From Stutzerimonas xanthomarina (GTDB lineage Bacteria; Pseudomonadota; Gammaproteobacteria; Pseudomonadales; Pseudomonadaceae), in contig NZ_RHQM01000009.1 of the NCBI RefSeq assembly GCF_003935375.1, positions 124,001 to 188,000 on the forward strand: a DNA stretch of 64,000 bases. The letters are read 5' to 3'. Both the position numbers and the translations under genes were made by a program. This document shows, piece by piece, positions 21,316 to 24,023 of the stretch; position 1 is the stretch's first letter, and each line of letters opens with the position of its first letter. The notes beneath the pieces are model-generated. The model searched no databases and was not told the DNA's origin. It was given only the letters and a program-made list of their open reading frames with translations.

Positions 21316-21804
21316 TCAATACACCGCAAATCGCTGACGCAGCCCCTGCAACGCGACATAAACCCAAGGCCAGAGCAATGCGCTGATCGGCACAGGCACG
21401 AGGAACAGCAGCGTCGGCGGCCGATTACCGGTCAGCGTGTTCAGCCAGAGCTGCACCAACTGGGCGAGGCCGAGCACAACCAGCAGCACCATGCTCTGTT
21501 GCCACAGCGGAAACATGCGCAGGCGTTGTTGCAGGCTCAGCACCAGAAAAGCGATCAGAATCAGCGGCAAGGCGCTCTGGCCGAACAGCGTGCCGGCCAG
21601 CACGTCCTGCGCGAGCCCGAAACAGAACGCGGCGCCCAGCCCACCGCGATGCGGCAGAACCAACGACCAGAAGGCGATGACCAACCCCAGCCATAGCGGC
21701 CGTGCGATCTCCGCGCTGCCGGGCATGGGCGCGACGCTGAGCAGCAGCGCGATCGTCAGGCTGAACCAGATGACCCATCCATTATTTGGCCGCCCGCTGA
21801 TCAT
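21316..21804 (-). CDS. mreD: MreD, rod-shape-determining membrane protein
   Basis: 162 aa, with about five hydrophobic helices and almost no loops, as usual for MreD. It is part of the MreBCD-RodA-PBP2 elongasome. Its ATG overlaps the mreC stop (ATGA), so it is translationally coupled to mreC. Confidence 0.93.
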   Translation of the reverse strand: MISGRPNNGWVIWFSLTIALLLSVAPMPGSAEIARPLWLGLVIAFWSLVLPHRGGLGAAFCFGLAQDVLAGTLFGQSALPLILIAFLVLSLQQRLRMFPLWQQSMVLLVVLGLAQLVQLWLNTLTGNRPPTLLFLVPVPISALLWPWVYVALQGLRQRFAVY

Positions 21805-22811
21805 TGCGCCTCCTCCGATACCGTTGTCGACGACGGAGCGGCGGGCGCCTGCTCGGAATCGCTCGTTTCAGCCCCCGCCTCATCAGCAGGTGCGGGCGCA
21901 GGTGCGGCTGCCTCCGCGCCTTCGGCAGCGGCTTTCTGATCGGCATCGGCCTGGGCCTCGGCAGCGTCGGCGGCCCGCTCTTCCGGCGTCCGCGAATCGC
22001 TGAAGACCAGCATCAGATAGCGGCTGCGATTGAGCATGGCGGTCGGCACCGCACGTACGATGGCGAACGGCTGGCCGGAGCCGTGCACCACCTCGGTCAC
22101 CTGCGCCACCGGATAGCCGCTAGGGAATCGCTGACCGAGCCCGGAACTGACCAGCAAATCTCCTGCTTTGACATCAGCCGTTTCGGCCACATGGCGCAGC
22201 TCGAGATAGTCCGGATTGCCGGTGCCCACGGCGATCGCACGCAGTCCGTTGCGGTTGACCTGCACCGGAATGCTATGGGTGACATCGGTCAGCAGCAGCA
22301 CGCGCGCGGCATACGGCAGCACCTCGACGACCTGCCCCATCAGGCCGCTGGCATCGAGCACCGGCTGCCCCATGAAGACGCCGTCCTTCTCGCCCTTGTC
22401 GATCAGGATGCGATGGGTGAACGGGTTTGGGTCCAGTCCGATCAGTTCGGCGACGATGACCTTGTCATCCACCAGCGCCGCCGAGTTGAGCAACTCGCGC
22501 AGGCGCACGTTCTGCTCGGTGAGCATCGCCAGCTTCTGCAGGCGCCGCTGCATCAGCAGCGCCTCGGCCTTGAGCTTCTCGTTCTCGGCCATCAGGCTGC
22601 TGCTGCTGGCGATCTGCTCGGTCGCACCTCTCCAGATCCGCACCGGCATGTCGGCGACCCAGTAGAACGGCGTCAGTACCAGCCCCATCTGGCTGCGTAC
22701 CGCCTTCAGCGCGTCGAAGCGTGCATCCACCACCATCAGCACGACACAAAGCACGACGAACACCAACAGGCGCACACCGAGCAAAGGTCCCTTGGCAAAT
22801 AGCGGCTTGAT
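21801..22811 (-). CDS. mreC: MreC, rod-shape-determining protein, probable ATC start
   Basis: 336 aa if it starts at the ATC at 22811. One N-terminal transmembrane helix (RLLVFVVLCVVLMVVDARF) is followed by a coiled coil (about 70-110) and the periplasmic beta domain; the C-terminal tail is Ala/Pro/Glu-rich. Upstream of a TTG at 22784 the frame is open to a TAG and has no ATG, GTG or TTG. It encodes IKPLFAKGP, which aligns with the family N-terminus (E. coli MreC begins MKPIFSRGP, recalled), so translation must start before the TTG. The ATC at the Met position has GAGG 8 nt upstream. A TTG start at 22784 would clip this conserved segment. Confidence 0.9.
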   Translation of the reverse strand: MKPLFAKGPLLGVRLLVFVVLCVVLMVVDARFDALKAVRSQMGLVLTPFYWVADMPVRIWRGATEQIASSSSLMAENEKLKAEALLMQRRLQKLAMLTEQNVRLRELLNSAALVDDKVIVAELIGLDPNPFTHRILIDKGEKDGVFMGQPVLDASGLMGQVVEVLPYAARVLLLTDVTHSIPVQVNRNGLRAIAVGTGNPDYLELRHVAETADVKAGDLLVSSGLGQRFPSGYPVAQVTEVVHGSGQPFAIVRAVPTAMLNRSRYLMLVFSDSRTPEERAADAAEAQADADQKAAAEGAEAAAPAPAPADEAGAETSDSEQAPAAPSSTTVSEEAQ

Positions 22812-22849
22812 TGCAACTACCTCACGAGTAAAAGCTTGAGACTAAACGC

Positions 22850-22890
22850 GACAAGCCGAAAGCCGGTGCGACCGGATCTTTCGGCTTGTC
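22850..22890 (-). other. Large hairpin between mreB and mreC
   Basis: GACAAGCCGAAAG (22850-22862) pairs perfectly over 13 bp with CTTTCGGCTTGTC (22878-22890); the loop holds a second small hairpin (CCGGT/ACCGG). No T-run follows, so it is more likely a partial attenuator or mRNA-stability element that sets the mreB to mreC ratio than a full terminator. Confidence 0.7.

Positions 22891-22910: not shown

Positions 22911-24023
<1,113 letters not shown>

Follow-up and report, generated by a model that had tools for sequence, protein, structure and literature searches.

The mreC gene of Stutzerimonas xanthomarina is predicted to begin at an AUC codon that is conserved as AUH across much of its class

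The cell-shape gene mreC of Stutzerimonas xanthomarina is predicted to begin with an ATC codon. In the window, which is the whole stretch of 64,000 nucleotides analysed here, the ATC at 22809–22811 on the minus strand is in all likelihood the true mreC start, where the initiator tRNA would insert formylmethionine behind a strong Shine-Dalgarno (SD) sequence and the resulting MreC level would be low and capped; this reading is built on comparison of genomic sequences. A codon of the same kind, ATT, ATC or ATA (hereafter ATH), occupies the corresponding position in most of the mreC loci compared from genus to class level, and mreC very likely belongs, with infC and pcnB, to the genes whose AUH start is conserved, as far as alignment can tell. 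To our knowledge very few bacterial genes start with AUU, AUC or AUA. Among the papers listed in a literature search, none treats a non-AUG start of mreC in its title or abstract opening.

Read from ATC, the mreC coding sequence spans 21801–22811 on the minus strand (336 codons plus stop) and scores 224.7 bits against the TIGR00219 profile, whose cut-off for family membership is 92.75. The identification is supported by the minus-strand gene order mreB-mreC-mreD, in which mreB (22911–23948) has an ATG start and begins MFKKLRG, and mreD (21316–21804) has an ATG start and a 4-nt ATGA overlap with the mreC stop. The nearest named records are from S. kunmingensis and S. chloritidismutans, with MreC matches of 98–99%. 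On the minus strand, an in-frame TAG (22842–22844) lies 11 codons upstream of ATC and is followed by TCT CAA GCT TTT ACT CGT GAG GTA GTT GCA and then ATC, with no ATG, GTG or TTG in between. The codons after ATC are AAG CCG CTA TTT GCC AAG GGA (KPLFAKG), CCT, and then TTG (22782–22784), which is codon 10 and the first canonical start downstream of ATC. The GAGG core of the SD sequence is at 22820–22823, with a spacer of 8 nt to ATC, and the upstream stretch forms a duplex of -7.0 kcal/mol with the anti-SD sequence. The first-pass annotation of this DNA had pointed to a frame empty of canonical starts from the TAG down to the TTG, and to a GAGG 8 nt upstream of ATC; both can be read directly in the letters. 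It had also given E. coli MreC as starting with Met, and the codon in K-12 is ATG. Its proposal that ATC serves as the mreC start finds strong support in the comparison across loci, and the check that it suggested, the codon at this position in other Stutzerimonas mreC genes, gave ATC, ATT or ATA throughout a first survey of 75 loci.

In 190 of the 241 ATH loci, the window included, the interval from the preceding in-frame stop to ATH holds no canonical start (49 hold one and 2 are without a call), and in 12 loci a single codon separates that stop from ATH. An SD sequence at initiation distance has a median energy of -7.0 kcal/mol over the 241 loci, 12 of them being weaker than -5. Coding periodicity, with a free third position, sets in at ATH, and the conserved block upstream is the SD sequence. 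Within the family the pairwise difference at the three codon positions is 0.55/0.58/0.59 upstream and 0.15/0.10/0.47 from codon 2 onward, and among more distant loci the values are 0.70/0.70/0.69 and 0.41/0.28/0.66. The mreB gene served as a negative control: its motif was located in 127 of the 144 ATH loci whose upstream DNA was long enough, and the codon preceding it was ATG in 120 (the other seven were three GTC, two TTC, one ATT and one GTT). That ATH is an internal Ile codon of a longer reading frame is ruled out by the nearby in-frame stops and the lack of upstream coding periodicity. An upstream start, as implied by database entries that begin [MV]AHKEQVIKPLF, was likewise rejected: the GTG in question precedes the SD sequence, and where a canonical codon does occur upstream (49 loci), the SD energy was stronger at ATH than at the nearest such codon in 48.

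Translation from TTG 22784, with IKPLFAKGP left untranslated, is very improbable. TTG is a recognised start type preceded by an SD-like AAGGGA (-4.5 kcal/mol), it serves as the annotated start in several database entries of close relatives, and the membrane helix would survive, with the best 19-residue hydropathy window running from residue 10; yet codons 2–9 carry both coding periodicity and amino-acid conservation, and TTG stands at codon 10 in just 12 of the 241 ATH loci. A downstream start is also at odds with the position of the first canonical codon, which has its median at codon 16 and lies beyond codon 37 in 4 loci, and with SD energies, which are stronger at ATH than at that codon in 238 of 241. 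It is unlikely, too, that two N-terminal forms of MreC are made, with ATH giving the full-length protein and a GTG, TTG or ATG further downstream giving a shorter one. Such a codon is present among the first 27 codons in 237 of the 241 loci, but the downstream sites have a weak SD (median -2.4) and variable positions, and some of these starts would cut into the membrane helix. An error of sequencing or assembly in place of ATG, or a frameshift that hides an upstream start, is scarcely credible, because the same kind of codon recurs in independent genomes and in named records that include the complete S. kunmingensis chromosome; nothing was found in favour of such an error, and the comparison across genomes refutes it, rules out chance and shows that the codon is no local oddity.

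Among 277 distinct mreC loci from genus to class, the start-position codon is ATH in 241 (ATC 116, ATT 101, ATA 24), a share that may be overstated since the sample consists of the better-scoring matches and of regions whose match reaches the N-terminus, and the search profile itself begins with Ile. All but one of the other 36 loci have a canonical start (ATG 31, TTG 3, GTG 1), the last having GTT. The 277 remain from 311 loci after 34 identical to another over -60 to +60 had been removed, and conservation of the AUH start is wide on this count, from which 26 loci with an N-terminus or start that could not be placed by alignment (L194, L208, L211, L232, L312 and L335–L355) are left out; if all 26 are taken as non-ATH, the share becomes 241 of 303. 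The loci L335–L355 have a different mreC N-terminus; several of them appear to resemble Burkholderiales and Xanthomonads, and several have an ATG a short way upstream. Also outside the 277 are 17 further family loci, all ATH (L134–L150), L301 (same genome as L180), L300 (part of the E. coli gene counted as L356), L382–L401 (larger fetches of loci already counted) and L402–L405, of which L402 has ATC.

The first survey, with ATH in 75 of 75, combined 30 genomes of the same genus with 45 named Pseudomonas and Stutzerimonas records, the species being partly shared. At the family level a pattern that also admitted ATG, GTG and TTG matched 218 of 298 genomes, with ATH throughout among the matches listed, and gave no match in 80. 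Of 30 family genomes chosen for a protein search, 28, representing 18 genera, yielded mreC, and all 28 had ATH; in one locus (L118) the ATC sits one codon ahead of the matched position. Two nearly complete family genomes (G079 and G093) gave no mreC match at the threshold used, perhaps owing to assembly gaps. At the order level ATH was found in 13 of 13 mreC loci and in 42 of 48 fetched regions, the others being ATG, TTG or unplaced. At the class level it was found in 24 of 28 loci and in 54 of 60 fetched regions (ATC 29, ATT 16, ATA 9), with ATG in 5 and GTT in 1. The phylum search brought E. coli-like families with ATG in all 19 regions read (L316–L334), together with mreC loci that have a different N-terminus. 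From the window's relatives and E. coli K-12 we infer that the class is Gammaproteobacteria and that the ATG group is Enterobacterales-like. A protein tree built quickly from 92 loci places these 19 E. coli-like ATG loci together in a single group (SH-aLRT 94), nested within the class where ATH is commoner; the start label needs 9 changes on the tree, and most ATG mreC loci may go back to one event. Ile codon bias was considered as an explanation of the ATH codons and set aside. Compared with expectation from internal Ile codons (n=208), ATT (90 versus 70.1) and ATA (21 versus 12.4) exceed it at the start position overall and ATC falls below (97 versus 125.4), a result of little weight given that the sequences are related and the groups mixed, ATT being in excess in the family, none in the order and ATA in the class.

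In the aligned loci the weak codon pairs with a strong predicted SD sequence, and E. coli-like lineages mostly show the reverse, ATG with a weak SD. The median mreC SD energy is -7.0 kcal/mol for ATH (n=241) and -3.9 for ATG (n=31). Restricting ATH to order and class (n=141) gives p=2e-11 against ATG, and ATH outside the family (-6.9, n=45) against ATG lineages (-3.9, n=20) gives p=4e-8; these and all other SD p-values are inflated, since the sequences are related and most ATG loci are perhaps one event. The neighbouring genes showed no such difference: the comparison of ATH loci outside the family with ATG lineages gave -4.1 (27) versus -4.0 (16) with p=0.16 for mreB, which was found in 27 of the 45 ATH and 16 of the 20 ATG loci, and -7.0 (43) versus -5.8 (18) with p=0.33 for mreD. 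Within the E. coli-like group a weak SD (above -5) occurs in 17 of 23 loci. Outside it, a weak SD occurs in 5 of 12 canonical-start loci against 10 of 141 ATH loci (Fisher p=0.002), with the threshold of -5 picked after the energies were known and 2 of the 12 loci sharing one family; thresholds of -4 and -6 give p=0.0002 and 0.01. The trade-off is not strict, since the SD is at -5 or stronger in 7 of these 12 canonical-start loci and in 6 of the 23 E. coli-like ones. Independent pairs on well-supported branches numbered 3 for codon against SD, too few for a test.

Database entries disagree on where MreC begins, and this codon is already taken as the start in some of them. Of the 4809 homologues found in the database, 120 protein entries were listed; 40 of these begin with M at this position, 16 begin upstream and 64 downstream. 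If the ATH start is correct, many MreC entries would be truncated or overextended at the N-terminus. In a P. aeruginosa-like genome (G168), whose MreC is identical (100%) to the 6zlv chain, the start region reads TAG GAG CGG ATC ATC AAA. This locus (L402) and two others (L070 and L076) carry ATC ATC AAA at the mreC start, where either ATC would be usable. The published residues Pro114, Phe115, Arg175, Glu188 and Arg190, as they appear in the excerpted text of PMC8137920, all fit an offset of 16, and the numbering in that excerpt is thus consistent with GTG codon 17 as the start, a codon that lies within the membrane helix or hydrophobic stretch. Were the upstream ATC the true start, constructs built on the numbering in this part of PMC8137920 would lack the cytoplasmic end.

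Between mreB and mreC, a stem-loop of 13+5 bp lies at 22850–22890 on the minus strand, with no terminator-like site called. A 136-nt stretch with this stem-loop folds with a z of -2.28, and the stem is kept in most aligned Stutzerimonas loci. A terminator or Rfam element was tried as a cause and rejected, there being no terminator-like site and, up to E 1, no Rfam hit. Three Pseudomonas loci (L066, L069 and L074) have a different stem with TTTGTGTTTT after it, an arrangement that resembles an intrinsic terminator and is possibly a second brake on mreCD.

The pcnB gene of E. coli has an AUU start and is non-autoregulatory, a likeness to mreC. Another gene that shares the AUH start is infC, which encodes initiation factor IF3 and starts with AUU or AUC; it differs in that its product discriminates against its own start codon and closes a feedback loop, whereas mreC is a cell-shape gene, and we know of no link between mreC and IF3. 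In our infC survey, 25 of the 26 genomes searched had a match, and inspection by eye showed that in 10 of these 25 loci an in-frame stop closely precedes ATH and no canonical codon intervenes. Pseudomonas-type infC (L360, L362, L364 and L367) reads ATT AAG CGT GAA ATG AGA, and its start is ambiguous between ATT/ATC and ATG. The infC start is often misannotated in Streptomyces, according to the consulted portion of PMC5472188. The same portion describes sigR of Streptomyces, which resembles mreC in having a conserved non-canonical start that keeps one partner below the other and that is misannotated in public records, and which differs in that its codon is GTC rather than ATH, it belongs to another phylum and its repression by IF3 has been demonstrated experimentally (PMC5472188).

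By analogy with infC and sigR, IF3 would be expected to discriminate against the mreC ATC, and IF3 control of mreC is plausible. A possible but doubtful reading accepts the ATC start and takes IF3 sensing as its conserved function, so that a fall in free IF3 per ribosome would raise MreC and couple wall elongation to translation. The IF3 regulation of infC AUH starts and the repression of sigR GTC by IF3, both in the excerpt of PMC5472188, speak for it, as does the retention of AUH when a single base change would give ATG; against it, the E. coli-like combination of ATG and mostly weak SD would drop IF3 discrimination and keep weak initiation. Its fullest form is tentative: infC apart, no AUH-start gene would be conserved as widely as mreC, the ratio of IF3 to ribosomes would set MreC and hence PBP2-RodA activity, and enterobacteria would have rewired an equally low set-point to AUG with a weak SD. 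If this were true, wall elongation in most of the class would be wired to the fidelity of translation initiation.

A low rate of initiation, and not IF3 sensing, is suggested as the property shared across lineages, because the E. coli-like clade mostly combines ATG with a weak SD. Under the ATC start, weak AUH initiation would keep MreC capped and low relative to MreB, and coupling through the 4-nt ATGA overlap would perhaps do the same for MreD. Selection probably acts on the low initiation rate of mreC, as may be expected if MreC has to stay in balance with the PBP2-RodA complex that MreC and MreD regulate. E. coli cells become shorter and wider when MreC is in excess; at least the shortening is suppressed by MreD, and the MreC:MreD balance has been proposed to set PBP2 activity (PMC7793260, in the sections drawn on here). 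From ribosome profiling, MreC in E. coli is estimated to be about twice as abundant as MreD and PBP2-RodA (same sections of PMC7793260), so that "low" there cannot mean below MreD. For P. aeruginosa the proposal has been made that wall synthesis could be switched on once MreC has accumulated beyond a threshold (PMC8137920, excerpted text). If the AUH start of mreC is real, a weak start codon would be a long-lived regulatory trait, kept over much of a class and no accident, and the setting of the MreB:MreC:MreD ratio would become testable by a one-base change.
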